A DNA stretch of 64,000 nucleotides from Owenia fusiformis (taxonomy: Eukaryota; Annelida; Polychaeta; Sabellida; Oweniidae). The translations under genes were made by a program, and so were the position numbers. Where the stretch lies: contig CAIIXF020000008.1 of NCBI GenBank assembly GCA_903813345.2, positions 25,652,822 to 25,716,821 of the forward strand. The letters run 5' to 3'. Positions 6,172 through 39,900 of the stretch are shown here, piece by piece (position 1 is the first letter of the stretch; each line of letters starts with the position of its first letter). The notes beneath the pieces were generated by a model. The model had not been told where the DNA came from. It saw only the letters and a program-made list of their open reading frames with translations, and did no database searches.

Positions 6172-9100
6172 ATGGCGTCTGTCCACGGTGTGGACTTCCT
6201 CCAAAATGAAATCGAAAAAGCAAAAGAAAGCCTCAAAGGAGTGGATGAAAACCTTAAAAGGGTGATGGGGAGAGATCCTTCTCAAAGGGGGTATGTAATT
6301 CCGTAATTGGTGCCTTAATTGTATCAATCAAACGCCATATTTTATTGATAAATAGACTACTTCGTTCAATTTTTTTCTATTCCCAACACAGAACCCCCAA
6401 AATGTTATTTTGAATAACAAATGTCCTAAATATTAAAAATCCTCAAAATAACCCCACATTTATGGGGGTAAATCACAGGAATCACTCCTTCCTTTATCGC
6501 ATCCTACGACCCCTTTGGATTGTGGTCGTACGCGCGTATAATTGGTCAGTCAATGTTTTTACAAAGTTGGAGAATACTACGCATTGCACACCTAAATGAC
6601 CTACCTCGATACATTCCTTAGTATTTTAGAATTCTTTTTATGTTGTTAGATCGCCAATTGTATGGGATTTTAGTTTTTACATCGGAAATATATCAGCAAT
6701 TTTCAAAATGTCGGAAGGGGAATTCCCCAGGGATTTCCCTTATGACTGGTGCATGCCGGGAACTGAATGGAGGAATTTGACGGTTGAAATAAGTTAAATA
6801 TTACACGCAAATATTGCTATCAAAAACGAAAACCTCTTCGTTCTGCCGATAAACGACGAGTCAGATCCAGTCCCCATTGGTAGTAGGTTCATTGAAATAA
6901 TGAGAAGACCGGACTCAAAACCAAAAATAGTACAATGTACATCCAAAATGACCACCTAAAAATATGACCCTAAGGCCTTTACCTTCACCATCTATCAAGC
7001 ATCGAATAATCAATAGTCGCCTTTTAATCTTTTCTTCATACATGTATTTCAGAATGGTTACATAATATTAACTGTTGATGCTGTGAATAAATTCACCTGA
7101 GACAAATGTTTCAAATTTTCTGAGCGTAAAGATGATGTTCTGATTCGGTAGTTTCCGGCCCATTTCCAACACTGTCCGATGATGTTTATCTGTCCGTTTA
7201 TGTCACATCACAGCGAACAGCCAATGAAAGCAAATGATCAAGTAGCCTAAACAAAGTCTAGGGGATTTTAAGAAGCCTCATGGTGTTTTTCAGTAATCTC
7301 TGGTGTGACGTCATCTGGAGTGGCGTCACATTCTCAGAATAAACATTCAATCTCCAGAATAGACATCATGATCACTGGGAATTGCTGAAACCAGATTTTC
7401 TTTATGCTCAGCTATTTTGTGCTTTGAGGACAAATCGTCTGTCTGAAATCACAGACGACGAGTCAGATCCAGTCCCAGTGTATATCAACAGACACTTACA
7501 TATGTTTGGAGATAAAGCTATTGGTGGACACTTGACACTAGTGGACATTAGCTTTAGGACATTCATACTGTTTCCCGAGTTTGAAGTTTAACTGTTGGCA
7601 CATTTGGCATGTTAATGTCTGACTCTTGTTTACCCACATGTTCTTATGAAATAAATTCATATGTAACTGCTCGTATCGTTTGTATCATAACGATTCGTGA
7701 GGTAAATATAATTGCTTGTATCGAAATTGAAGATGATGTATCGTGAGCTCCCTAATATCTAGTGTACTCTGTAAAACTGGAAGATGGACCCCATGTATAA
7801 AATGCTATTGTTTTTGAACTGAGAATCTAGATGAAACCAGACTTAAGATTACTTGTTATCTGTTTACAGTGCAGAAAATAGAGGTTTGGGAGGATCTGGG
7901 CCAATGGTGAATAGGCGGCGAGTGACTGTAGGTGGGACTGAAAGCTTCAGGGGTAGAGAACGTACCTTCAACACTGGGGACAGGTAAACGACATGCTTAT
8001 TGTATATCAATGCAAGAACCATAAGGATCAGTTAACATAATTTCCAAAAATCATTCTTGAAAGTTTCACAATTTTCAAAAATTCATAATTTTTCAACTTA
8101 GCCCATTATTACTTCTACAAGTTACTACCACTGTTACATAAAACTGATTTTTTCAATGGCTTGCTTTGTTTTTAAACAATATAGACCCTAAACTGGTTTA
8201 TAAAAGGTTTTTCAAAAAGCATCAATTCAAGCCCTTGTGATCACACTGCATGATTCTTTTAGTTAATGTCTGTTACATGGGTAGATAAAATAATAGTTAA
8301 GGTTTGTGTGCAGAGGATTCTCTCCTTTCTAAAGTTATACACCTTATGATTTATACAACTTGGAATTTTTTTTATAATGACACAAACTCGCAATTTATAA
8401 TTCATTTGATCACAACTTGAAGTTATATAAGTCCATTGACATGTGTGCTTATTATCTGTAATAGGAGAGGAGCAGGAGGAGGATTGGAGATCTACTCACC
8501 CCCAGCCAAGAGGAGGAACATGGGCCAAGGAGTCACAGCAAGGTAGGCCTGTTAATGATTGTATGAGCACACATTTTAAATACAGCCTCATTGTTGTAGA
8601 ACTTTGATGTCTGTTTATTGATAGAAATACTGGTATAAATATTTTTTGATTCATACTAGATACTGGTTCATGTGTTTCCTGACTGTCTGGGGTTACCGTA
8701 TTATCTCTATTAAACGCACACTCTCTAATAAACGCACACCCGACTTTTTGTCCCAGGTTAGAAAGTCCTGTCCAGATAATATTGAGATCTGACGAAGCTC
8801 TAATAAAAAAAACATTGTGGGCGATAATAAGTATTTTCACCGTTCGTTAAAATAATGCATCATGATTCATGACGTCACGATCTCCCATCATGCAACGCAT
8901 GCAACGTAAGAAATTTCTTCAGGTGTTCGTGTAAATAACACACAATAGTGTATTTATATACTAAATTTGTCGTCTAGAAACTCACAATTCAAGGTAAAAA
9001 CATAACATCAGTCTACGATTTCGTCTGTCGCACCTCGCCAAATGCGGAAATGAAACTGCTGGGGCGAAAAATTGTGGCAACTTTTAGGCTATAACTTCTC

Positions 9101-15976: not shown

Positions 15977-17302
15977 ATCCCATCGAACATTTTTCAAAAT
16001 GAGCACCTTCTACCAAAAGTGTCATTAGACTGCCATGCTTATAATATTCACATACCAAATATGAACAAAATCACTTTACTACTTTTCGAGTTATAGTAAA
16101 ATACGGCCACCTTCTACCAAAAGTCTCATTAGACAGTGTGCCATGCTTATAGTATTCATATACCAAATATGAACAAAATCGCTCCACTACTTTTCGAGTT
16201 ATAGTAAAATACGTTAAAATGGCTGCCATTTTGAAAAATGGCCGCCTTCAACCAAAAGTGTCGTTAGACAGTGTGTCATGCTTATACGTATTCACGTACC
16301 AAATATGAACAAAATCGCTCCACTACTTTTCAAGTTATAGTAAAATAAGTTAAAATGGCAGCCATTTTTCAAAATGTCTGCCATTTTTCAAAATGGCCGC
16401 CTTCTACCAAAAGTGTCATTAGACAGTGTGCCATGCTTACAGTATTCACATACCGAATATGAACAAAATCGCTCCACTACTTTTCGAGTTATAGTAAAAT
16501 ACGTTAAAATGGCGGCCATTTTGAAAAATGACCACCCTCTACCAAAAGTGTCATTAGACAGTGTGCCATGCTTAATACGTATTCACATACCAAATATGAA
16601 CAAAATCGCTCCACTACTTTTCGAGTTTTAGTAAAATAAGTTAAAATGGCGGCCATTTTTCAAAATGTCCGCCATTTTTCAAAATGGCCGCCTTCTACCA
16701 AAAGTGTCATTAGACAGTGTGCCATGCTTATAGTATTCACATACCAAATATGAATAAAATCGCTCTACTACTTTTCGAGTTACAGCAAAAATCGTAAAAT
16801 AACGAGTAAAGGCAAAATGTCCGCCATTTTTCAAAATGGCCGCCTTCTACCAAAAGTGTCATTAGACAGTGTGCCATGCTTATAGTATTCACATACCAAA
16901 TATGAATAAAATCGCTCTACTACTTTTCGAGTTACAGCAAAAATCGTAAAATAACGAGTAAAGGCCGCCATTTTTCAAGATGGCTGCCATGTGCTTTTTC
17001 AATATCTACATTTCTAGCTTTATTAATGTCCTATATCATTTTTTTTACATTTAAAACATATTGCTATTACAGTTTTACATATTGCACCTAAATTACTGTA
17101 AAATCGGCACTAAAATGGCCGCCATTTTTAAACGAGCGGCCATTTTGAAAATCGGCTTTCGAGCAGAACTTCTACCCCCATAGGGTATATGTGTACAAAA
17201 TATGAATAAAATCGGGCCAACAGTATTTGAGTTATTGCCCGGACGGACGGACGGACGGACGAAGGCGTTCCCTATATCCCTCCGAACTTCGTTCGATGGG
17301 AT
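15977..17302. repeat. Tandem-repeat element with short inverted ends
   Basis: Seven copies of a unit of about 104-156 bp, each with CTACCAAAAGTGTCATTAGA and AATATGAACAAAATCG, separated by palindromic AAAATGGCGGCCATTTT blocks. The block is bounded by ATCCCATCGAAC (15977-15988) and its inverse GTTCGATGGGAT (17291-17302). Near the right end lie a CGGA microsatellite (17238-17262) and a hairpin (17275-17302). ACAATTAG occurs just outside both ends. It looks like a non-autonomous element carrying internal satellite; class unknown. No coding sequence. Confidence 0.75.
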
Positions 17303-18539: not shown

Positions 18540-18885
18540 CCATACTGTACTCTATCGGATTGTGCTGTACTGTACTTTATTGTGCTGCACTGTACTTATT
18601 CTGCTGTACTCTACTGTATTGAGTGGCACTGTACTATATTGTGCTGCATTGTACTGTACTATATTGTGCTGCACTGTACTTATTCTGCTGTACTCTACTG
18701 TATTGAGTGGCACTGTACTATATTGTGCTGCATTGTACTGTACTATATTGTGCTGCACTGTACTTATTCTGCTGTACTCTACTGTATTGTGCGGCACTGT
18801 ACTGTACTACATTGTTCTGCACTGTACTGTACTATATTGTGCTGCATTGTTGTACTGTATTGTGCTGGGATATACTGTACTAGCT
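18540..18885. repeat. 84-bp minisatellite built from GTACT/GTGCT words
   Basis: The unit beginning TGCTGCACTGTACTTATTCT starts at 18583, 18667 and 18751, an 84-bp period. Within it, TGTACT and TGTGCTG are themselves repeated. Being stop-poor, it opens long frames on both strands with Cys/Leu/Tyr-only composition; these are not genes. It lies within about 100-440 bp beyond the ABCD4 stop codon, so it may be in the 3' UTR. Confidence 0.9.
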
Positions 18886-18976: not shown

Positions 18977-21900
18977 TCATTGTGAATTTGTTAGAATTGG
19001 CAAGATAGTCCAGCCTCCCATTCCATCTAGTTTAAGTTCAGTATTGTGGTATTGACGTAAACTGTCTCTATGGCCCACACTGACTACAGTGATGTTGAGA
19101 TCTTTACATTTGGTGTACATACTGCATTCTGAAGTCAATCCTATCTGGCTGCTAGCTTCATCCAGCACTGCAACAAGTTAGTTAAAATAATCAAGTGAGC
19201 TTAATGGAAGATATGTAAGGGGTACAGACATTAAGACGTTGTCCTCAATTCCCTACTTAATTACTGAAACAACATGGTTATCCTACATCAATACATTTTC
19301 ATAATACATGAACATAATTTTTCACAGATATGTTTTCAAAAGATACAAAATTTAAAAATGCAGCATTGTGATAAAACAACCGAGCAACTTACCTGCAAAT
19401 GGAGGACTGTGATAGAACAGTCTAGCAAAGCTCAGTCTTTGCATCTCACCTGGGGAGAGCATATCATACCTAAAAGTAAATTTATGAATGGATAGTTTTC
19501 AACGTGCAAAATCTGTGGACTCATCCCATGTTAATTGCTAATTATTAGGAATATTTATAGAATAAAGACAGAGATTTAGCCTTTAAGTGTTGCATAATCA
19601 GAATTTAATTTGGGACTTGCATCCATTTCTCATTGTTTCATGGAACTCAGAAATTAGTCAGGACAAAAATCACTATTTCCAAACTGGCAATTGCCTTTAG
19701 GACTGTCAATAGATGATTAAAAAATTCAGTGTGTTTAATTACACATACTTTTACATGTAAAATTGATTCAAATATCTCCTACATTAAATTTTAATGTATA
19801 TCCAAAACCTCATGATATTGACACCTTTAAGTAAATAATTATGATGAGAAAATGTGACATAATTTGATTCATGTAGTGTATTCGAAGTATCAAGACACAA
19901 TTTTTATATATAAATCAAAAGGACAGGTGTAAAGAACAATCCAAGAGAGAAAATTATTGAACTGCTATCTACGAGTTCTGGCTCCCATATCACATGGAAG
20001 CAATAATGTATTTACGTACCAGTTCCAATCATTCTCTCCATCCAGGCTAACCCTCTCCAATAAATGAGTGAGACCAACATACTCTAAACACTCTGAGCAC
20101 TTCTCATCATCATAACCTAAAACATTAAAGACTCATCTTGAACTCAATATCATTCCATTTTATGCCATTTTTTAGTCTAACAGTTAGGACTTCATTTTAG
20201 GTTAATCCTTTGATTAACTGATAAAAAAATTGAAAAGTTCTCCTCTTTTTAATTCAAATGAATAGGGACATTTCTGCAAATTAGTCTTCAATTCTTATTT
20301 TTCAGAATTAGGAAATAAGATATGGATGTTAAGGGAAACATAATGAACAGGCATGCTTTTTGAAAATCTTACTTTGAATACTTTACATATTTAGTCTTTG
20401 AAGTGAACATACAAGAATGCATGGAACAAATGCACCTAGTTGCAGATGATTTTTATCATCTCTGTTGAATGCTTTTTATGAGGTTTTCATTTCAGTTAAT
20501 ACTGCATTTTTTAACTCACTTTCAGTGTTGCTTGTTTCTTCTACTGGGTATATTATCTGAAGGTATAAAAACATAATAGGTAATCTTTGAGGAAAAATTC
20601 AGTTGCAGTGGAATTACACTTTTGGCGTGTCACCTATTTATTGATATTCACTATTATCTAGCCAATGTAACATTTTACAAAGAGACTTGCGTAATGACGT
20701 TATGTGTAAATCTCGTAGATGCTCTACAAGTAGAACTTTATTTTTTATGACGGTTGGATAAGGCCAACTGACATGTGGGAAAGACCACTTGGCACTCTGG
20801 ATAAGATGAAGGATACAGCTGGGAAAGACCAGTGCACAAGAACATGCAGTAAGGGATGTGTGATACAGGGTGATCTCGAATCGCTCTGCATGAATGATTG
20901 TATTATTCCATACGCAGCATGACCTGCGTACCAATAGACTGTAAAAACATAATAAAACATAAGCAATAAAACAAACAGGGCTTGCCCGGCTTGATGATAG
21001 AGTAAGAAGAATAAGGTAACATATATGTAATTTGTAATCACCTGTTGTTTCAGAGATCCACTGGTGAAGTATGGTTTCTGAGGTAGGAACATGACACCTG
21101 CTGGCCCTTGGGGTAGGAGACGGTCCACTGTACCTTTAGAGTGGGGCCAGAGAGCGGCAAGTACCCTCAGCAGAGAACTTTTTCCACAACCACTGTCCCC
21201 TGTGATCAACATGTTCTCCCCCTGGCTTATCTCTATACTGAGATCTATTTTGTGAAATAGAAAGAAGTACATGTATGAGTTGCATTTACATGCCTCCTAG
21301 ACCTCAACTCACATGGTCATCAGTTCTCATATCACAAAATCGATGCGCAAGTGGAGATATAAATGTAAGTTCAGAAGAGAGGAACTGGTGAGTCAAAGTC
21401 TAGGATAGATTACATAATCCAAAAATAAATTTGCATAACTCTGCATTTGTAGAGTTATACTATTTTTTTATCAGAAAATAAAACAAGATTACAATATAGC
21501 CCCATAAGCTGCACTGGCAGAGACAGTGTTTTAGAAACCAAGTTATTTTAAAACGATGAATTTTTTACCAAAAATCTGTCGTGCAATGAAAATAATTCAA
21601 ACATGACCGTGCTCTATTCGAATTTCTCAACCAATCAGAATGCAGCATAGCCAATATAGAACGTTCTCTAATTCTCCATAGATGCACGACCATGCTCTAT
21701 TCAATCTACAATTTGCATTGTTTTGAGTGACGTCACATCTCAGCTGCACATCTGGGGCTCTGTCCGGGGATAGCTGTTCTTTTTTACTCCCTCCGTAACT
21801 ACTGTAACATTTAACTATGGCTGACTATATAATATAATAATCTAAAACGGGGAGTAAAATAGAACAGCCCAAACAAATTCTAAAATTTTTCCAGCCGACT

Positions 21901-24900
21901 TCAGAATCTTGACAGCATGCGTATTCTTCCTTCATGCCCGTTCCACAGACACGACTTTTACTAATTTTTATGTTTGAATCGGAATAAATAATGCTAGGCC
22001 ATTCAATATGGTGAAATTCAGCACTCGTTGGACAGAATGTTAGTACAAATGCACTCACCTTCGGTTCGTGCTTTGTACAACATTCTGTCCAACTCGTGCT
22101 GAATTTCACCATATTGAATGGCCTATCATTATTTATTCCTTAAATAAAGAAATATAAATAATATATTACATACCATTTAAGAAATTTTTTTCTGCCCTTG
22201 GTTTTTTATAACTGAGATGTTTCACCTTGTAGGCTTTAGTTGAATCCTCTGGGCCCTCACTATAAGATCTTGAACTGTAACACCAAATACATAAGACCTT
22301 AAAGAACTACACATACTAGTTGGTATTTCCTTTTTTATCACACTTTCAAAAAATGCTATATGGTCCTCATATTGTTCCTGTTGTGTGGATGACTGGGTTC
22401 CACATAACTCTTGTTTTAAATTAGAAGGCACTTTATAAAAACTTATTTTAGAGGTAAGGAAAAAAACGAAAAAGATTACATATTACACTAAAACCTGTCA
22501 AATTTGAACGCCTCTTGGACCAGGCAAAAAAGTTTAGATTAACAGGTGTTCACATATCAAGGTTTTTTCATATGTGAGTCTATGGGAGATAACAAATACG
22601 GGACCGAGAAAAAGTGTTCACATTGTACAGGTTTAGCTGTACACATAATTGTAGTGCTGAGTTTGGATGGGTAGATGGCAATAATATTGTACTGCATAAT
22701 ATCGTGACAAGATGGACTAGAACATATATCCGTGTGTTATTGTAAAAACTTAACTATTGTCAAACTAAGATGTTGAAATCATAGGACTGTAAATCATAAG
22801 CATGCATAACAATAAGGTATAATACCTGCTGAATGATATGGTACTAAGTGAGTTATCGTATTCCTGTTGGTCTCCCCAATGTACATCTAAGCACTCCAAC
22901 AGCTGGCCAATACTGAAAACATCAGGTTAAAGTAGACATGAATTATTGTATTCCTGTTTGTCTCCCCAATGCACATCTAAGCACTCCAACAGCTGACCAA
23001 TACTGAAAAAATCAGGTTAAAGTAAACATGAATTATTGTATTCCTGTTGGTCTCCCCAATATACATCTAAGCACTCCAACAGCTGGCCAATACTGAAAAC
23101 ATCAAGTAGCTGGCCAATACTGAAAACATCAGGTTAAAGTAGACATGAATTATTGTATTCCTGTTGGTCTCCCCAATGTACATCTAAGCACTCCAACAGG
23201 TGGCCAATACTGTAAACATCAGGTTAAAGTAGACATGAATTATTGAATTCCTATTGGTCTCCCCAATGTACATCTAAGCACTCCAACAGCTGGCCAATAC
23301 TGAAAACATCAAGTTAAAGTAGACATGAATTATTGTATTCCTATTGGTCTCCCCAATGTACATCTAAGCACTCCAACAGCTGGCCAATACTGAAAACATC
23401 AGGTTAAAGTAGACATGAATTATTGTATTCCTGTTGGCCTCCCCAATGTACATCTAAGCACTCCAACAGCTGGCCAATACTGAAAACATCAAGTTGAAGT
23501 AGACATGAATTATTGTATTCCTGTTGGTCTCCCCAATGTAAATCTAAGCACTCCAACAGCTGGCAAATACTGAAAACATCAAGTTGAAGTAGACATGAAT
23601 TATTGTATTCCTGTTGGCCTCCCCAATGTACATCTAAGCACTCCAACAGCTGGCCAATACTGAAAACATCAAGTTGAAGTAGACATGAATTATTGTATTC
23701 CTGTTGGCCTCCCCAATGTACATCTAAGCACTCCAACAGCTGGCCAATACTGAAAACATCAAGTTGAAGTAGACATGAATTATTGTATTCCTGTTGGTCT
23801 CCCCAATGTACATCTAAGCACTCCAACAGCTGGCAAATACTGAAAACATCAGGTTAATGCTGACATGCAGACCCACCAATCTACAAATATTATAATTTAG
23901 TAATATAATACTTTCTGAACATGGTGATATCTAGATTTAAAATACATGTACTTCCTGGAAAGTCATTATAGCTGTATCACTTTTACAAGGATTAAAATGT
24001 TGTTCTTGAGTACAAGATTTGTGTCACATTTCTGAAACTTTTATTGAACATTGTAGAATCAGACAATGTATCATGCATTCTTGAGCTGTGATTCATTTCA
24101 CTTTGTAAAACTAAGCAATTTTACAGACTGACAATGTTACAGGCATCATGATCAAATATGGCTGACTTCACATTCAAGCATGGGTAGGCAAGGTGTGTTA
24201 AACTCTAGCCAATCAGAACACAGTATTTCATATATTATTACATTTCATTTTACAATCAACAACCCACCCGAGGTCATTTTTAGATTCTAGTGAAATAAAT
24301 TAAACTGAAAAATAACAATGAAACCAGGCACATTTCACAAAAGAGAATTTTACAGGTTTAGTTGCAATACTTAAAAGTGCATTATGTAAAATTTTGAAGG
24401 CAAGTGGTGCAGATTAAGCAACGTTCCTGCCAGCACCAGTCCTGTTACTTTTGGAAAACCCTGTATAGAACATTGGTATTACATTGAATACATGTAAATG
24501 TACAATATTTGTAAGCCTCGCTGAAATACTTTCTTATGCATAAAACAACTTCAAAATATACTAAGTAATAAATATATTGTGATATGGTAATAAAGTCTCA
24601 CCCCAAACCCTATTGTACCTCACTAACATACACACATTCTACATGAGGAATACCTCCATTGATGTACATACAATGTACAGAGCACACATGAATACAAGAG
24701 TGAACCGAGTGGAGACCATTTTACAAATAATTCACAATGTTTTAGAAATATTTTCACATGTTTTATTTCCTAGGGAAGCCCTGAATAGTATTCTATAAGA
24801 GTATTATATACACTAATACACAACTTTAAGGATTTGTTATTTTGAAATGTTAAGTTTGGAAATTCCCTTACAATAGAATTCTGTGAAAGACGTGTCAAAA

Positions 24901-27900
24901 TAGAAAATATTGTGCAAAGAATGATATGATTATACAAAAAGCAATCATTACAAGAACATAAAAATGTCAAGGAGATTCAACAAAATAATTTTTATAAGAA
25001 TTCACCATTTTGATATCCTTACATTGACAAAATATTGATTGAATATTTCTGAAAGGGCCACATGGTAAAACTGCATAATAAATATTAGATTACTTTCTTA
25101 TATAATACTTTCATTATTTGCAATAATAATGGCCAATATACCAGTTTACAATAAGTGATTAGCAGCCAATACTGGCCAATACACTGATATATATTAAAGG
25201 CACCATGTAAATTCAAATAACTTTGGCTTATATTGCAATTAGGGGTGAGACGAGTCGAAAAAATCCGATTCGAGTCGAATCCGATTCGAGTCAGAAAATG
25301 ACGATTCGAGTTTCGAATCCGTTTCAAGTCAGATAAAGTGCGAACAACATCGCTTTTGACCGTTCGTATTTTTAATGCGTCAATGGTGGAAAGCCGGAAA
25401 TATAAACAAACACAATTCGTCGTAAGTTTATTCTGATTTTATCACATATATTCTTTCATTTATGTGTACATACAATATAATAATTTAATACAAGCATATC
25501 CAAGTCATTGAAACTTATATATTCAGCGCAATATCGAGTAAAAACATGCATATTGACAGTATTTTTCTGAATTTTTTTATTTTTTCGAATTTCTTCTCAA
25601 CTCGAAAATGATTCGATTCATCAACTTCGACTCGATTCGACTCGACTCGAAGCCCCAAACCCGCGAGTCCTCGACTCATCGGGTTGTCGTCTCACCCCTA
25701 ATTGCAGTGTTACCCAATGGTCTAAAAATAGATTCTTTGAAGCACTTTTTGATTTAGAGAAATTATGAATTGATTGCAAATTAAATTTGATTGTTACATT
25801 CATATATTAACAAGAAAAACTTTAAAATACATATGTGCATATCAAAATATATTAAAACTATAAAAAATAAAATAAATATATTAAACAATATTTACAAACT
25901 TTGCATGGGACCTTTAAGTGAACCAATAAGATACACCTATAAGACTATCACCAGAATATTATACATTTACCATGAGGAGGTTAAACATAAAACAATGTCT
26001 GATTTTCAGTATAATCAGTATTCTGTTTCTAAACTTGCTAGTATTCAACATTTTGCTTTACTATGGATATTCAAGAATGAGCACATCATTAACTGGTAAT
26101 TCTTGGTTGGAAAACATTCTCAGCAGTCCACAAATTCAGAAATTGATTCAAAATGGAAAAGCAGGAGGCTTTGTCAATCTCCAGCAAAATTCTTTAGGAA
26201 GAATATTCATCATGACAAGCAACAAAATAACTAATACAAAACTGGATAACCTGACAACTCAAGCTGGAAAATCTGCACCTGAAATTCATGAATCAATATC
26301 ATATTTAGGAATAGATGTATCAGACTCGGGGGAAGCTTTATATGTTTATAAAAGGATTTTATCTCGACATTTATTTCCTTACAAGAAACTCATAGTGGAC
26401 ATAGGAGCAAATGATGGCCTCATGTCCAGCAATTCTTTCAATTTTATCCAATGGGGTTGGGATGCTATGTTAGTGGAGCCTGTTCAACAGCAGATAGAGA
26501 TGGCAAAGCAAAATGCAAAAAGGTAATTGAAAATGTGTATTTACAGGTATGATATACATGTACATGTTCTTGGAGTTTGGATTTCTCAATTGCTTCTGTT
26601 GTAATTTCGGTAATTGACAGGTCGAGACAAAAACAGCAAAGAGATAGCAAAAATTATTTCTCATTAAATTCTTGAATTTTGAGATGGGGAAATAGTCCTA
26701 ATTATCGCACAGTCCTATTTATTGCACAATTGTCCTAAATATCTAACCTCTTTTAAACCAGTGTTCCTAACACCGGCTCAACACCATTACTCCCAATCTT
26801 AATGATTTATTCATATATTTAGAAATTACAGGTTATTAATGTTGCTTACTGTTGAAGGAGAGAGAGAGAGAAAAGGAAAGATTGTTGGTTTTTGTCACTT
26901 TGCATAAAATGATGATATTAACGCAAGAGTCTGCAGATATTCCATAGTGTCTCATGTTGTTCCATTTTGTTGTTTTTCTTTGCTATGTATTTTTCTTCTT
27001 CTTCTTGACTCTGAGGGTATATTTTAAAAGGACCTAGTTCTGGTCTATTGTCTCCTAATTTTCTTAGGTATATTATATGAAATGTTTCATATGAATCAGT
27101 AGCTTATTTTTTGTATTTTCTTCTACTGTATCCGAAAACAATGTCTTTATTTTCTGGTCTATTTTCACCAGCTTCCTCATAGCACATCCTCAAAAAGTCC
27201 TTTGTGGCTATACATTCTAAGAAGCCATGTTCGATGCCATCTACAGGGCGTCCACAAAAAAAGTATACCCAACTTCAAAGCTAGGAGACCAGAATTCTGA
27301 GCAATTTCCTATTAATTTAAAGGCTGCAGTATAAGGCCTAGTTAATTCTCCATCAAATGGTACCTAGATCATTATGTAACTGTCATGTATGACTGAGCAA
27401 TCAAGACTTTTATGAAAGGTGGAAAATCAGCACTGTGCCAAGTTAGCATTCAAGTAGGATTGACACAATGAATGTTTTTTTGTGTTCAAAACATTTTTAA
27501 AGTTCAAATTCAAACTTGCTCCATGTTCTTCAACCTTTTAACATAATTTCCCATAACTTCTTATTGCTACCACCCTCGCTGAAATTGGATCCCAAGAGCC
27601 TCTTGAACAGCAATGAAAATTCTACTTGATGATATGCAGCCTTGAAGTCAATAGTAACCCCCATAGAAGTCAATACACCCTTGGTGAAATCCTCATTTTC
27701 TCAGAATAACTCAAGTTGATTGAGTCTCAACAAGTAGATTAATGTTGGACAGTATTGGTAGAATCAATTTTCGATAGTAAGAATAGGGATTCTTAAACAG
27801 TACACTGGACTCACTTTTTGTGGTCTCTTCTGCTCATGTGTCAGTTGAACCATGTTTGCAGGTCTATTTTAGAGTAAGTAAGCTTTTTGCCAAATCTTTT

Positions 27901-30900
27901 TTTCATAATTGAGCTACTCAGCCCCCATTGCAGTTCATTATGAAAGTCCTGTCATCTAACATAATGTAACAGAAAAAGAATACTAAGCCAATAACACATC
28001 GATTGTCACACAGGAAGATAACTTGGCACCGTGCTAAATTTACCACCTATCATAAAAGTTTTGATTGCTCAGTCATACGTGACAGTTACATAATGATCTA
28101 GGTACCATTTGATGGAGGACAAAAAGGCTTTTTGCTGTAGCTTTTGGATTTCAAAAAGATTGCTCAGGATTTTAGTAATTTGGTTTTGAAGTTGGGTATA
28201 CTTTTTTTGTGGACGCCCTGTAGTATATGGTTCTCATTGCATATTGTACACATTGGCGTGTTTATCCCCTCTATGTTCATTTTGTTTAGCATTTTATTGC
28301 TAAGTATATTGTTCTGTGTAATAATCTGAACTGGAAGTATCTAAGTTTCGCATTACTTGTTATCATTTTATAAGTGGTGTATATTTCATCCCATTCTTTC
28401 CTCATTTAAATTTAGCTCCCTAAGCCACTTGTCTTGTGCTTTTATAAGTTCTATTTTTATTCTTTTAAACATCCTATACATAGCCGTAGGGACCGGGGAT
28501 TCAATGGGTTCGGATGAACCCCCGGTCGGGGTTTCCCCCGAAAAATATTTGTGGAAAATTTATTGCAATAACCAGAAACATATATTCGATTTATATGACT
28601 AGTAGATAAAAATTTTAAATTTACACTTCTCTCCAAAAGATTGGCAACCTCAGGCACGGGGTGGAATTGTTTAATTTTGGGAAGACCCCGGAGCATCATG
28701 ACATTATGCAAAGAAAAATATCAATAATTTTGCGCAACTTATTTTCCAGCTTAAAAGCTGCTCCATCTACAGGGAAATAAACCAACTGTCTTAATACTGA
28801 TGAAAACACATTTTCTTTCAAATCTGTGCCCCTCTAAGTAACAGAAACATTTTGAAATGAGTTATTATTAAAAGCATATGTATCATTTATGAACACAAGT
28901 ATTTGATCAAATAGGTATTTATTATCCATCACTTTTTAAGGAATAATAAATCCATTGCGAAAAAATCAGTTTTGCTTTTTTTAGATGCACGTTGATCTTG
29001 GAGATCATTTTAAGATTAAATTGTTGCTGTTTCAGTCTATTTAGTATTTACTCTATTTTCAAGAATATCAAACTTTAGTGGATCGTGTTATTGTCATTAA
29101 TTGTATATGTTTAGCAAATAATTAAATGGATTGAGGGAGGCAATTAGGTGAGTATGTCTCTGGTACTAGATACAAGTGTAAAAGGTACACAAATTGCGTG
29201 CAGTTGAAAGTTCTGTCCAATAAAAAGGCCAGATGGAGTCATCTTTTGCTGAGGAAAGCAAAGGCGTAAGGAGGATTATATCAAATAAGTATATATCAAT
29301 GAGTATTTTATTTTCACAGTGAAGGGAAAAAGTTCATAATAAAAAATATCGGGATTTTTAAACTTCAAAGACCTAATTACAGATGGCCTGCGGTTGAATC
29401 TAATCTACTTATTAAATATAGAGCCCATTGGTTCCTCTTGGTTTACGTGGGAATGAAGATTTTCAAAAATTCATCAAAAATTGGTATCATTATGGAGAAC
29501 TGAATTCAACAATGTTTTTCGCTTAAACCAATCATTGAAAACATTCTGTAAAAAACAAGTTATTTTATGTGATGTTCACTGATTGACAACAATTTAATGC
29601 GAAAATTATTTAGAAATACTTTATATAACTGTTTTTTGTTAACATTTTTTGTTTTTCAGTGCAATTGTTTTTGCTCCTTTCTACCAATTCTTGAGAATGA
29701 AATAAAATGTCTTCCCGAACCTTGTTGGAACAAAATAGCATATGCAACATGTTTGTAGACCTCTCAATATTATAGTTATATAAAGGAATTTTTGGTTGAT
29801 TTTAAAAAAGCATTTAAAAAATTAAAACAAAATCCCCCAAAATGAACAAGATACTTTTTTAAAATCAACAAAATTTCCTTTGTACAATTACAATTTTGAG
29901 AGACTTAAGCATGTTGTGTTTATGTCGTTTTGTTCCAATGAGGTTCGGAAAGATGTTTCATTTCACTCTGGAAACATGATACCAAGAACAAAACAAGTGT
30001 TTGATGTGTTTTCTAAAACAATATAGATGAAAGTATATAATTATTTTTCAAATTATATTGTTACCATTCAAAAGATGACCATTAAATTGATGATGTGTTC
30101 AATTTTTAGATTTTTTTCATGACTGGTTTAAGAGAAACGTGTGTTCAAAAAGTTCTCCACATCGATATCACTCCTTTAGAAGTAAAAAACAAATTGGGAA
30201 AATTTGGAGGCATTTGAAATGAAATCAAGTTACATTTTAATCAATATTATAAGTATTTTCCCCGCAGGTTATGTAAATAAAAATTCAAATATAAAGAGGA
30301 GGCAGGGAGCTTAGGTTGCCAAACTTTTGGAGGGGAGTGTATTTGCCAGAAAGAAGAGAGGATTAGCCTACCACAAGTTTCAAATCGTGTGTCTAAAAAG
30401 GATTTGACAGCATTCTTCAATAAGATAATAAAACGTTAATTTCTCAAAAACAAATCAAAGTTTATAATGATTCACAAGTTCATCTAAAATATTTTCATTT
30501 CTCAAAACGTTCATGATTTTCGTCATTAATGATAAAAACAGCGGAACGGTGATAGAATGTTTCATTCCATATGTAATACAATACTATTTGTCATCTGTCA
30601 CTTCTATCGTCAGTACCAATTGAGAGTATTCATGCAGCCATTACGACTTTTATTGTGTGCCATGATAAAATAAAATTACATTCTTCAAAAATATTTGCTA
30701 GTAAATAACTGTATAGGTCATTATGGACTCCTCGATTACAAAATGAAATAGCAAATAAAATTCTTTTAATTTGGATTCTTTTCAAAAATCATCTAAAAGC
30801 GTGGGAAAATAGCATGTGTCAGAATTTGACATATCTTTGAATGAACGATTTATCAATGGTACCTCGTTAAAAATATGTTCCTTAGAAATATGGTATAATT

Positions 30901-33900
30901 TGCCCTTAACAAAAGTTGGCTCAATGTATGCTAATCCTTGATTTGGATTTCATTGAACAATTAAACAAGTGTTATATTAAAATGTATGACTTTGCTACCA
31001 GATTTTTCCTTATTATCATAGTTTTTTAGCTTCATTTTCCATAAAGTTTTCCGTTTATCTTTGTCATCTGTATTGAAATATTTTCGCAACCATTTAACCT
31101 TTGCATTTTTGGCAAAGGCTTTTAGGTTAACCATTTATAGAATGACGATCTTGTCTTCATATGAAATTCTCTAATTTTAGATTCAGAGACCCGTATCGCG
31201 ATAACAAACAGAACGTTCAGTACATCCAAGCTGTTATTGGAACAATAGATGGCAGCATTGACTTTGCACTGACTAATGATGTAGTTTCCATGGAGAACCA
31301 CATAATCAAAACAAATAGACCAATGGCTGGAAATGTAAAAGGAGTAACAAAAGTTAAATCCATGAGGGTTGAGACATTTGTGAAAACATACAATATTCCT
31401 AGAATGTTTGGAATTCTATCCATTGATGCAGAGGGCATAGGAGATGAGGTAATAGATCATTTTGTATTTTTAAAACTATAAGCTTTTCACACCATCCTGT
31501 AAATCTCAGCAATTTCCCATTCCTCTTAACTAATAAGTGATAAAAAGTAAAATAAGGCAATAAACTGCATGTCTATTTTGTGGAATTTCACCGGCTGTGT
31601 GTGATTTATATGTAGGTGAATTACAGTATTTTGTTGGATTGGTTTTTTAGAGACATCAATATTTATTCCCAAATCATGATTTTTAATTTCTATGTTTTCC
31701 AGGTGCTTCACCAGTTTATGGAATACAATATGAGACCAGCTTATATAATATATGAATCACTGCACAATAGAGAAAACATTTATGACACTGAGCGCTATAT
31801 GAAGTCGTTTGGCTATGTCAGCATGTCTAAACTAGGCTGGAACCATATATTTGAGCATAGACCTTAGAGTTATACTCAGGGCTCAAAACTCAAATTGCAG
31901 TTATTTGCTACCATCTTTAGAATTAATAAAATAAATTAATACCTGTGATTCCGACCTCTACAAAATTCTGCATAATATTCATTTATGTAACCCTAAAATT
32001 ATCTAGACGATGGAACTTTTTATACCTGTCTGATTCTAGCATAACTACTTAATGGAATCAAGAACTATCTGAAATGGCCACTAGGCAAAAACTGTTAATT
32101 TCAATATACTGTACAGGGCCTGACACTATGCATAAAATTCTTTCACACATTGGAAAATATTATATATAATATCAATTAAAAGATACAAAATGACTGAAAA
32201 GAATATTTTTTCAAAGAAACCTTTTGCAAGGGTCAAGTTGTCACCTAGACGGCCATGATTCAATGTTTACCATTTGACCTGCATAAGCACTTGGCTTGTT
32301 ATTTCCTATGACACTATTTATACATTTTTACTCAACTAAGAAATTCATCAGCTTATCAGTTTCATTAGTTTCATGAGGATCTAAAAATAACCTTGGGTGC
32401 ATTAGAAGTGTATTGAAATGCAGTTATATGAAATAGCATGTTCTGATTGGCTGGAATTGCTATCCAGGTGATAGCATCTGCCAATCATTCAAAATAGCTT
32501 GTCTGTGTGTCATGTCTAATTAATTCTTTCATTCTACCCAAATATACAAAATCCATTCATTCTAAAAATTCATTGGAGGTGATATTGTTAGAATAAATAT
32601 GGAGAAGTATTTTTGCTTGGAAATGGATTGATAAGTGACTTTTACAATGAAAATTGTTATTTTAACATACTGTCTTTAATTCAAAAATTCACATATAATA
32701 TGAGACCAATCTCTTAGATATTCATAGCACTAGCAGAAGATACCCTAAAGTGCCTCAAGTAAAGTTTTTAAAGAATTTAGTTTATTTATTGCTGAAAAAT
32801 TAATTATCAAATTACTTCCCATTCCCATGACCCGCTTGCTTCGATGAGATCACTGATTCATTAAAGCAAGCTATTGTTCATTGGTGCAAACATCAAGTTT
32901 GACTCACTGACTGCCATTTTTCAGAATCTCATCAAAATGTGAACATCTATCAAGGTGAACCCGTCAGCTAATCAAAGCAGTGTTCCCTGAAGACATTTTT
33001 TATTCTACTAGCGCTACATATAATTAACTGATGTTGAACTCACCGATGAGTGGTCCCAGCTATATCTGATGCTTGAGAAGCCATATCAATAAGTCTTGTG
33101 AAGCAGTTGATCAGATAGATTGTCACAAATGAATTCTGAAAACAAGACATTTCACCATGGAAAAATTGATGAATGTTTATGGTATATTTTTTCACAAAAT
33201 GAAACCATTATGAGGTGGATGATTATGAACAATATTCATAAAATATATTGAGAGCAAACAATGGAAAACTTTTGGTTCAACCCTAGTATACCATTTATTG
33301 ATAAAGTTTACCTGAACAGCAACACAAAAGAAAAAATTGTGTCTGAATGAAATGCTGTTTCAATATATCTAACATTAAAATATTGGTTTACAGGGTGGTG
33401 TACTTACCCTACTTATAAGGGCACTAAGATCAGTTGGAGAGAGATTGTCATAAGTACCCAGAAATATTGGAACTGCTATTGCTATATAGCTAAGTATGCT
33501 GCCTAGGTAGTCACCACAGTTTACAGAAACTGGAATTTATAAATTGTAATACACTGTAAATCAAAGTATGCAATTTTGGTCTGTTTAAATTATTTGAAAT
33601 ATACATGTACTTGCAAATGAAATATGAATTTGTATATATGTCATTATAATTATGCCAAATAAATTAAATCAACCCTGCATCACTCACAGCAGATTGATAA
33701 ATTGCGAATATAATTTTGCATCATACTATACCATATATACCATGGTATGTAGTGCTGTGATGTCATTTTGAATTAGACATGATTCATTTGGCCTAATACT
33801 GTAAATTGCTTTAATTCGACAGCCGTTTTAAGATGGCGGATTTATAAAAACTGCCAAATTAAGTCTATGCCAATTTTTTTAAATGAAATTTCCGGGAATT

Positions 33901-36900
33901 TTCGTTCGGTGCTTTTTCCATGTGTTACCTAATTGCATGATAAAACTTGGGTGAAAATCTTAATTGAAACGGATAAATGTCAATTTTAAACTATTTCTTG
34001 TGATCTTAAGAGTTCCTGCTGGTTTAGATAAAACAATCTGTTACCAGGAGTGATAAAATTGCATTATTTGTCACTGGCGAGCTGTAAAAGAGTAAACTGA
34101 ATGAATTCAAATCACCAAATTAAACAGCAGCCAAAATTTCAAAATTTGTCCTATCAGCCAAATTAAAGCAATTTACAGTATGGAACTTTAACTTAAATGT
34201 TTAACACAAGATACATGCTATCAACTACTTTATGTACATGTCTCCATGTGTCAAAAGTTTTGAATAAAACCATGTGGTCTGAGCTTAAGTTTAGTTTATT
34301 TTTTTTTTATTAAAAACTATATTTCAAATCAAAAACATATATACAGTACAATTAATACATTTACATAAAAAGGTTACATGTTGTAAAATGATTTTTCCCT
34401 ATCATATATCATTTTTAAAGTTTCCTGCTCATTCAGCAGATCACATTTAAACATATGGATAGCTTTTTTTATAATCAGACTTTTAAAATATTTTTCTTGT
34501 GCTAAATTTTCAATTATACCAAGTTTTTGTTTATCACTGAGACAATTACAATCACTGGTGTTCCAAATATTTAAAACTTCTTTACACTTAACAAAATAGT
34601 GCATATCATCATCAATTTCATTATCACAATATTTACATTTATCTGAATCTTGTATTTTACACTGTTTTAGATATTTGCCACTTGGATAAATTTTATGGAT
34701 AATCTTCCATTGGATAATTTTGAGCTTATTATCTTTTGTACAATTAAAAAGTGTGTTCCACACATTCTTACTTATCAATGTATTATCATATTTGATATCA
34801 CATTTTCTTGCCAAGACTAACTCTGATCGTATATACTTTGAATCTGATTTACATAATTCTCTATTTAGTTTATACAAAACACTAGATAAACATTTCACCT
34901 TCAACTATAAATTTCCTGCCATTATATCTCTTGATAATATCCATACTAATCCTTTTTTATATAACATCATACCATGAGGACAATGGAATAAATGAATTCT
35001 TATTGCATATTGTTGATTCAATGATCAATGTTCATCTAGTAAGTACAACTATTTATTACACTCTATTGTCATTGAAACAATGGTTGGGATCTACATATGT
35101 TTATCAAGAAGGTACTTCTTAATTACCCAAATGCAAGTAGGTAGTTACCAGTTTCACCACCAGGTGGCTGATTCGGGTCAATTAACATGGCAGGTATATA
35201 AGAAAGTTCCCTTAAACTTGAATATTATCAATTTAAGTGGCTCAATTTTCATATAACCCTTATGTGTCTGATACTTATACTAATGAAAATATGTCCAGTA
35301 AAGCAAAATATTATCTGGTTACTAAAAGAAAAGATATTTCATTTTTTGTGATTTTATAGCATGGGGTCTATGGGGAATCTCCCCGAGCTAGAAGTCACAT
35401 TTTCAAAGAAAATTAATTTTTCAAAGTTGATAAACACTTTTTAAAACCACATTTCTAGATGTAATTTTACATGTAGATTTCAAATATGATATTACTTTGA
35501 CTGAATTTTTAATGACGTAAATCAAGATTATTTCTCCTCGCATCTGGGTTATTGATATTACAAATTATTTTAACTTACAATTGAGAGCATACTCTCTGCG
35601 GATAAGTCCACTCTGAGCCTGTAGAAGCTTTGAGAGTTTGTGGTTTGCTTTTTGTGCCTCCAGTCGGCCAGCCTGATAGAAGGCAGCTGATTCAGCATTT
35701 ACTCTTATCTGCATGTGCTTGAATCTACAATGACCAAATATGTTGAAGTTTGGATATGATACACCATTATTATAGTATTATAGTATTCATCAGTGTTTTC
35801 CTATTGTTGTAAAAATTTACATCACACTGGGGTAAGCTATTCCAAATCGATATCACTGTGGTGGAAATCTTCAACTTGTTTACAAAACAGATCCATTTCA
35901 GAAACAAAATATTGCAATTGATTTTTTATTTTTCAATAATTTCACGAGTTGTAGACAGAATCTTCATAACACTTTTGGCACAAACTGATGTCAGCATAAT
36001 ATGTTTCAGAAAATCTAAGCATTTAACAAATTGGTTCATGAGACGCCATAATGAACAAAATAATTCCTCACTATTGTTATGTAAATTGAATGGTTGAAAG
36101 TGCAGATGTTAACCATTTTTAACATTCAATTGACGTAACAAAAGTGTGGAGCTATATCGATAAATGTACAATGTATGACATGGCCTAGTAGGTACTCACT
36201 TAAAATCTTCACTTTTCTCCTGTTTGACAACATAATGTATGATATGGCCTGGTAGGTACTCACCTAAAATCTCCTTCATTTTTCTCCCGTTTGACAACAT
36301 AATGTATGACTGGGCCTAGTAGGTACTCACCTAATATCTCCTTCTTTTTCTCCTGTTTGACAAAATAATGTATGACATGGCCTTGTAGGTTCTCACCTAA
36401 AATCTCCTTCATTTTTCTCCTGTTTGACAACATAATTGTATGATATGGCCTGGTAGGAACTCACCTGAAATCTCCTACATTTTTCTCCTGTTTGACAACA
36501 TAATGTATGATTGGGCCAAGTAGGTACTCACCTAAAATCTCCTTCATTTTTCTCCTGTTTGACAACATAATGTATGACTGGGCCTAAGAGGAATTTGTTG
36601 ATGACAGTGAAGACAATGAAGAAGGCCAAGACACTCACTGGTCCAATGTACCCAGTCCTGAAAAATAAGATTGCTGTGAAAGAGAGATGAATGAAAGTCC
36701 AGCAGACAAAAATATGTACATAACTGGGAATTTTGAAAATCAAGTAAATCCATTTCTCAACATTTCAGCCAATTATTAGTTTCAGCATGGGCTTTCAAGA
36801 AAAAGCCCATGGTTTCAGGCATCTGCCCCATCCCTAATATGTACATCCCACTTTCCATAACATATAGACCTTCACAAGAATGCAGGTGATGAGGGGGGGT

Positions 36901-39900
36901 AGCAGTGATATGATGCAAGACAAGTTTGAAATGTTTCTTACCCTGTCCATGCTTGGTAAGTATAGTAGGCTATGGTAAATGGTGTGATAAGAAGACGGGA
37001 TATGATTTGACTCAGGTTATTGCACAGTTTATCTACATCTTGAGCGATTCGTTGGTCTCTAAAAATATATAACAAATTGAAAAGAACATACATATATATA
37101 AAGAACAAAGGGAGGGGTTTGGGGTAGATCCGGCTATGAAATGAGGTCCTTAATATTACCTCCATCAGGTGGGTGGTTAGGAAATATAATTATCAAAACT
37201 GTAAAACCAAAAAGTCCTTTTTAGCTAGAATAAACACATGATTGTGGAACACAATATAAAGGAGCATGTCGGTTATCGCAAACAATTTCAGAAGGTTATA
37301 TCTTGCATTATGACTATTTTCTGACAATGAAGACAAGTTTATCTTTTAGATCAATTCATTATCTCAAAGAAAATTATGCACAGTAATAATAAATTCAAAC
37401 AAACTCGGAGATAGTTAACTAGCAATTAACCATCAACACACTTTTTCAAAGATGTTGACCCTATTTTCACCAAAAATGCAATCATTTTTTACAATGTTTA
37501 ATGCATTACTATTCTTTATTTTGATGTCTCAAATAGTTCTTGAAAGAAAAACTTAATTGCATTAAGACAAGTGTTCCCCGTGTTATTTCTCCATTGAAAA
37601 ATCTCATGCTATCCATTGGTTTCAGTTCATTTTGGTCATCCAAATTGAATATCTTTAAAGTCCCTGGAGCAATCAAATTTTCCTTTTAGGAAATCGAACA
37701 TGTCTCAAAGCACATTCTAATTATGCATACAACAATATAATAATAGGTTGCATTTTTGGTGAAAATTAGGGCATCATTTTTGAAAAAGTATGTTGATTGG
37801 TCCATTGCCCCTTCAATATCACTTAGGACTGATTAACTAAATTATCATTATATATACTTTTCTTGAAGATAATGAATGGATCTAAAAGATACACCCATGT
37901 TCATGATCAGAAAATATTCATAATTCAAGTTAGAATCGTTTGAAATTGTTTGCGATAACCTACGTGCTCCATGAATTGATACTTACGGATTGTCAATATC
38001 AATGTCTAAGACATTTATCTTGTAATAGAGGACATCCCTGAAGTATTGTTTGTGAAGATAGCGGGTGATGGAACCACGCCATGTTAAGTAAAGCACCCCA
38101 CTGGCATACTGGCTGCTACTCTTTATCTGGAGCAAAATACATCTTTATGATTAAATGTAGCATATCATAGAATCAGGACAATGTACTTGAATTAATAATT
38201 ATGGAATTCTACATCATACAGGTTGGTTAATGTATTTAAGATACAAAAGAACTTGGCAAACATTTTCTCTTCATTTACCACCTGACATTATATTTCTGGA
38301 AACATTTCCAAATGTATTTTGAGACATGCAAAAATGAATTCTGAATGATCAGCGATTTTGCAACAGGTGCATTTGACAGAAAATCCTAGAATATTTGATC
38401 ATAAAGATAGCTGGCAAACAACTGATCTGTTTCTAAACAGGCTATATAATTACACTACTTACAAAGGCTATGGCGAGGACCAAACCAATGGATACAAGTA
38501 GGTCAGATCTGAAGGCAACCTGGTCCTTGTCCCCAAGAGATTTGTAGAACTTACTGGGTATCAGACCAACATTGTAGATCACATACTGCTCTGTAATATA
38601 AAAATACTAATTTGTGTAAAAATTATGGATTTATTGTCAATCAAAAACAGCTGTCAGGAACAAAATGAATGATATTGCCAGTTGAGCATCACTACAGTTA
38701 TCTCATTCAGCTGAAAACATATGTTTTTGTTGAAGTATTGACATTTTTAAAATAGAAATTTGTTCATAAATACTAGTAATCAATTCCATTAAATGATTCA
38801 TGTATTTGCCATATCATCTAATCAGATATGCAATACACCTGTATTTAAATGAGGTGCTTCATATTTTTCGGACCAACAGGACTTTGCACTTCTTTTGCAA
38901 TACAAAGTCAGATTACCCTCAGTCCTCACATACCTAAATCAAGTGAAAAAGTTGATCACCTCAAGGTAAGAGTTGCTCCCCTAAGTTAAGGTATTTCATT
39001 AAGCAGTGTGTTAACCAATGGGTTGATATCAATTTGGATTAGAGGAAGGGTGGGAGAGTGAGTTTATTGTATCCTACATGTATAATGTTACTCACCAAGG
39101 AGTCCTATAATGTTACTCACCAAGGAGTCCTATTATATTCCTCACCAAGGAGCCCTATTATATTCCTCACTAAGGAGTCCTGTAATGTTACTCACCAAAG
39201 AGTCCTATTATATTCCTCACAAAGGAGTCCTAAAATGTTACTCACCAAGGAGTCCTATTATATTCCTCACAAAGGAGTCCTTTAATGTTACTCACCAAGG
39301 AGTCCTATCATTATTATGACAACAAAAAGTAGCACACTGGCAGACTTCCAAGAGGGAAACATCACCCCTAGCAACCGACATAGCCTCTTTATGAACAGCA
39401 GACCAAATTTGTAACTGAAAATACAATAAACAACATTTTTTACAAAAAAATGTTGCAGCAAGATATTTAATATTTGCAAGAGAATGCTCATTCTTATCCA
39501 ATACTCAAACAATTTGAGGTATATACAGCAGGTTTGTAAAATGTACTTCTAACAATGGCAGCATATATAGCTAATTACATCCTGTCTGAGCAGACAGATA
39601 TATATGTATATTTCTTTCTCTTCTATCACTTTTCTTCTAACTTTCTATCTTAAAAAACAGTTTTATATTTTGTCATCTTGATTAATACAATTATGTAATA
39701 TAATCATATGTAGCTATATACACCCGCATGGGTGTCAGTTGCCTGTACATTGAAAATCGATATAATTGACAAGTAAACAATATGCAAACTGTATATACTA
39801 TCCTCGGGATAATCCTAAAATCCCGAAACCTCATATATGGATCAACCTCTCTAAATATACCTTTTCGTATGACCTCTGAAGAATCCCATAGTTTTACTAA

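Follow-up and report, generated by a model that had tools for sequence, protein, structure and literature searches.

What turns several splice junctions of a single gene into tandem arrays of splice sites, and how far are such arrays out of the ordinary? The question is raised by a gene in a window of 64,000 nucleotides (the whole stretch of DNA that was analysed, C8:25,652,822-25,716,821), part of a 498-Mb assembly of 525 contigs with a GC content of 33-34% where sampled. The first-pass annotation had identified the gene as ABCD4, described three arrays at its exon-intron boundaries, and offered three readings of them, namely a duplication mechanism acting on junctions, selection for splice-site redundancy or poison isoforms, and neutral slippage with the exon-side copies held by selection.

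The name ABCD4 is upheld by protein comparisons. The joined exon peptide matches the Pfam families ABC_membrane_2 (6.6e-65) and ABC_tran (9.7e-17), and the best match of a 147-aa stretch is to solved ABCD4 chains (4.6e-53), with an alignment that spans the joins read between exons 6 and 7 and between exons 9 and 10. An FkbM-like methyltransferase gene, recognized by eye, is nested on the opposite strand within the 10-kb intron 9 of ABCD4 (window positions 25990-31870, + strand). Two more tandem arrays, at 18559-18882 and 16004-16965, lie about 0.1 and 2 kb 3' of the ABCD4 stop codon and are at no known splice junction.

Anatomy of the ABCD4 junction arrays

Features of the ABCD4 locus, in window positions
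Feature	Position	Strand	Description
ABCD4 gene, exons 2 to last	18980..39414	-	15 exons placed; exon 1 not located
ABCD4 exon 2	39296..39414	-	3' end formed by the exon-proximal 25-bp copy
Exon 2 donor array	39081..39308	-	25-bp unit with a 50-bp higher-order pattern; 9 GTGAG donors, 1 exon-proximal and 8 intronic
ABCD4 exon 6	36531..36657	-	ends ...QEKNEGDFR
Exon 6 donor array	36170..36586	-	unit about 67 bp, spacing 64-68 bp; 6 donors
ABCD4 exon 10	22827..22912	-	exon boundaries read in sequence
Exon 10 acceptor array	22849..23857	-	90-bp unit; 12 acceptors

The arrays were located by TRF, with periods of 90 bp (exon 10), 67 bp (exon 6) and 25/50 bp (exon 2). Every unit in all three is made of exon and intron sequence from across the real boundary, two arrays repeating a donor (5' boundary) and one an acceptor (3' boundary). 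They are mirages, a kind of structure already described in lancelets. Together they carry 27 splice signals (9, 6 and 12), three of the exon 2 copies being weak; sites were counted by motif, so that copies without GT or CAG would escape the count. The exon 2 donors run from 39295 to 39095, one every 25 bp (n = 9), those of exon 6 from 36531 to 36199 (n = 6), and the exon 10 acceptors from 22912 to 23839 (n = 12; 11 TTTCAG and one TTTACAG) at 90-bp spacing, save one truncated 27-bp copy near 23119/23092. The counts fit the TRF copy numbers at exon 2 (9.1) and exon 6 (6.3). The motif count thus reproduces exactly the numbers of sites first claimed (nine on a 25-bp unit, six on a unit of about 66 bp and twelve on a 90-bp unit). 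That the arrays span the junctions was likewise correct; the start at 22826 was not, the exon 10 array beginning at 22849.

The arrays are seen in one assembly, and a lancelet mirage was once misassembled in a draft genome, according to the accessible text of PMC3087553; both points would suit an assembly artefact. Against this, the copies in the exon 10 array diverge from the exon copy, with identities of 0.875 to 0.975 (0.60 for the truncated copy), and such arrays occur in several genes, which makes an artefact very improbable. The region of the exon 2 array has one match in the assembly.

Reading frames and conservation of the copied sites

The initial claim that only the exon-proximal site keeps the ABCD4 frame was borne out at all three junctions, each of the 24 intronic sites (8, 5 and 11) leading to a premature stop. 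At exon 2 the stop met from all eight distal donors is the TAA of GTGAGTAA, and at exon 6 that met from all five is the TGA of AGG-TGA; at both donor arrays the stop sits within the donor itself. All 11 distal acceptors of exon 10 keep the frame, yet meet a stop. Five distal exon 10 copies form a single 149-aa open frame of 30-residue repeats, since they have CAA where the proximal copies have TAA.

A stop at every distal site would be in keeping with selection for the arrays, whether as redundant splice sites or as a means of poison splicing, in which stop-bearing transcripts are degraded and ABCD4 is thereby tuned. So would the intronic exon 6 copy at 36464, which outscores the real site at 36531 (13.7 vs 11.1 by donor-matrix score). 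A stop right after a GTGAGT donor would, however, be common by chance, and the copied motifs do not behave as selected sequence. With all arrays pooled, variation is seen in 6 of the 24 splice-motif columns and in 49 of the 162 others; the corresponding figures are 2/9 vs 6/16 at exon 2, 3/9 vs 20/62 at exon 6 and 1/6 vs 23/84 at exon 10, in a count that includes the exon-proximal copies, treats exon 6 gaps as variation and leaves out the exon 10 copy at 23119. This column comparison found no conservation of the splice motif above the rest of the unit in the three ABCD4 arrays. Decay is also seen at exon 2, where three of the eight distal donors, those at 39270, 39220 and 39170, lack the exonic -1 G and are weak, scoring 4.5-4.7 vs 9.1. 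Weak exon 2 copies and an exon 6 copy stronger than the real site likewise give no sign that intronic sites are kept. The intronic splice sites thus show no sign of being maintained, and the same structure is found in unrelated genes (see below); selection for the arrays is accordingly improbable.

Junction arrays elsewhere in the genome and the expectation by chance

The ABCD4 gene body holds four arrays of 80 bp or more, and three of them are junction-anchored. When four arrays were placed at random among the 15 exons, with exons left unbroken, three or more were anchored in 0.3% of 200,000 draws. A cruder, post hoc estimate comes from array density. The catalogued sequence amounts to 264 kb, made up of the window and of one 100-kb block each from C1 and C2, both at 20.0 Mb. 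Arrays of 80 bp or more number 42 there and take up 9.2% of it, from which 0.0135 anchored arrays are expected per junction, a rate that leaves out the four anchored arrays known in the 264 kb. For the 29 junctions of ABCD4 this gives 0.39 anchored arrays and a Poisson probability of 0.7% for three or more. Three anchored arrays exceed chance for a gene named in advance; ABCD4 was picked for looking odd, and at that rate many such genes would be expected in a genome that we take to have tens of thousands of genes. ABCD4 is nevertheless unusually dense in mirages for one gene.

Such density could point to a mutational bias that favours tandem duplication at the exon-intron boundaries of transcribed genes and would raise mirages above chance; a step in base composition or breaks linked to transcription, for example, might underlie it. 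The frequency of junction arrays outside ABCD4 bears on this directly. We sought tandem copies within 800 bp of exon edges in 50 coding segments, which have no more than about 100 junctions between them. The segments were 25 ABC_tran loci, not all independent (some belong to one gene or are close paralogues), 11 further segments of the window and 14 from the C1 block. Among the ABC_tran loci one (L025) has a junction copy, a decayed acceptor copy of 74% identity at a lag of 171. Its neighbour L024 carries three acceptor copies 20-21 bp apart, which the exon-edge search missed. Weak or non-junction self-matches were not counted, namely those of L022 (E 0.48), L027 (0.35) and L035 (0.35), together with six self-match rows of L024, the strongest of which (lag 573) ends about 60 bp before the exon.

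The exon-edge search found no junction copies in the 11 other coding segments of the window, for which gene models are incomplete; to that extent, the remark that TRAPPC6B, PNN, FBXO48 and the methyltransferase are without such arrays held. A 22-bp exact direct repeat occurs in the window at 6853-6874 and 7455-7476 (lag 602), the one copy lying within a coding segment and the other upstream.

In the C1 block, one of the 14 segments has a junction copy, an exon of an M48 peptidase (31077-31190; Pfam 2.6e-8) with five TTTCAG/TCTCAG acceptors, the real one and four intronic. We take this peptidase to be OMA1-like. The sample consisted of 13 of 35 codon-score candidates, picked by eye, and the M48 exon, which was added after its array was seen and is thus no blind hit, the block itself having been placed arbitrarily; none of the 55 candidates of the C2 block was used. 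The home-made codon score proved too weak to annotate genes in the two 100-kb blocks, and most of the 31 arrays there were left unclassed. The AMP-binding family, with 14 places in the assembly, lay outside the exon sample.

Outside ABCD4, therefore, 2 of the 50 segments have a junction array (3 with L024), compared with at most about 1.35 expected, in a comparison of low power. In this small sample the frequency of junction arrays is compatible with chance, and it offers the mutational bias little help.

The edges of donor arrays on C1 lean the other way. Of four read, chosen from the donor-motif matches listed and with no control-array edges alongside, three (L047, L048 and L049) start where an ORF with an acceptor-like start ends in a donor, and the fourth (L050) is ambiguous. 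Homology backs L049 only: 25 residues of its RFESD-like exon, which borders a donor array of 38-40-bp units, match the Rieske protein PDB 3d89 (1.1e-8), and Pfam assigns Rieske_4 (3.4e-8). The peptides of L047 and L048 match no Pfam family. A search of NCBIfam with two peptides of this study gave no match.

The donor array at the L049 edge lies in two blocks, C1:6976937-6977676 and C1:6978852-6979302, with about 30 CAG/GTGAGT copies among the matches listed; the first block begins at the Rieske exon, and the second, of the same 38-40-bp unit, follows 1.2 kb further on. At L048 (C1:5412030-5412420) the last 31 exon bases recur as nearly the whole of the 33-bp intronic unit, GTGAGTCCC included. 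Judging from this sequence, the L048 donor looks built from repeated exon sequence, and a donor shift is possible.

Mirages are, in sum, not special to ABCD4, being found also at Rieske, M48-peptidase and ABC-transporter exons and at two further ORF-bearing exons. Genome-wide motif counts, which are counts of matches and not of independent arrays, divide over the mutational bias. Pairs of CAGGTRAGT outnumber those of the backward motif by a factor of 3 to 4 (373 vs 113 at gaps of 11-41, 427 vs 110 at gaps of 42-72), with a few large arrays dominating the matches listed. The shorter GGTRAGT, taken in triples at 20-50-bp spacing, shows no excess over its backward control genome-wide (1683 vs 1772 matches), long arrays and TGGA-type repeats filling both sets among the matches listed. 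Taken together, a mutational bias towards junctions appears unlikely.

We consider it probable that the arrays are a by-product of random tandem duplication, with exon-breaking outcomes removed by selection and the intronic copies neutral. A short tandem duplication with one end in an exon and the other in the intron would give the initial unit, which could grow into a minisatellite by slippage or unequal exchange. In an array-rich genome such duplications may land anywhere; those that break an exon would be purged by purifying selection, and those that spare the exon-proximal splice site would be tolerated, because the proximal site would be the one used and the further copies would be spliced out with the intron. 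Among the readings first offered, neutral slippage with a selected exon-side copy thus fits best, selection for redundancy finds no favour, and a junction-targeting mechanism is not needed on present numbers. The structure is real, odd in appearance and present three times in one gene; its claim to be extraordinary is weakened by the lancelet precedent and the further examples in this genome.

A bolder proposition, which we regard as doubtful, is that in this lineage boundaries are preferred sites of tandem duplication, and that the arrays exceed chance genome-wide and supply decoy splice sites through which introns are moved or newly formed. A genome in large contigs is a place where junction preference and intron shift could be counted.

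Comparison with lancelet mirages and related systems

The microRNA families mir-2 and bantam are protostome markers. In this assembly, four mir-2 hits lie within 6 kb on C3, three of them above the curated cut-off and one below, compared with a hit in 1 of 14 control prokaryote genomes, below the cut-off. A full-length bantam-like hit reaches 53.2 of 61 bits, below its cut-off, with none in the 14 controls. No match to cytochrome oxidase I (PF00115) was found in the assembly. The mir-2 and bantam-like hits speak for a host that is probably a protostome, and not a cephalochordate as in the reported mirages, although a cephalochordate host is no part of their definition.

According to the accessible text of the two reports (PMC3087553, PMC3902484), mirages are known from the lancelet genes for Adh3, the globins BflGb6 and BflGb9, troponin C and PGBD5, the last two added by PMC3902484; RT-PCR is said to suggest that splicing is undisturbed, and it is discussed that mirages may occur generally in cephalochordates and may give rise to new introns. 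As far as those texts describe them, they share with the ABCD4 arrays minisatellite-like units across an intron/exon boundary, at donors as well as acceptors, with splice signals in many copies, and their published units of 10-160 bp compare with 25, about 67 and 90 bp here. The ABCD4 case differs in its apparent protostome host and in having three arrays, of up to 12 sites, in one gene. Among the titles and abstract openings of the literature searched, which excluded subscription papers, we found no report of mirages outside lancelets.

Human internal tandem repeats (PMC2812944) are similar in that minisatellite units, of about 30 bp on average, occur at exon-intron boundaries among other places; as summarized there, in genes that were duplicated recently they alter transcripts and give rise to new introns, whereas the ABCD4 arrays are known from genome sequence alone. 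Intron gain by tandem duplication, as outlined in the accessible parts of PMC2891723, PMC4974935 and PMC2809761, is similar in that tandem duplication gives rise to splice sites or introns; unlike in those systems, no new intron is seen in ABCD4, where the intron carries further copies of a junction that already exists. The occurrence of mirages in several genes of an apparent protostome, at a rate near that set by array density, suggests that abundant minisatellites, and not a lancelet-specific process, are their cause.
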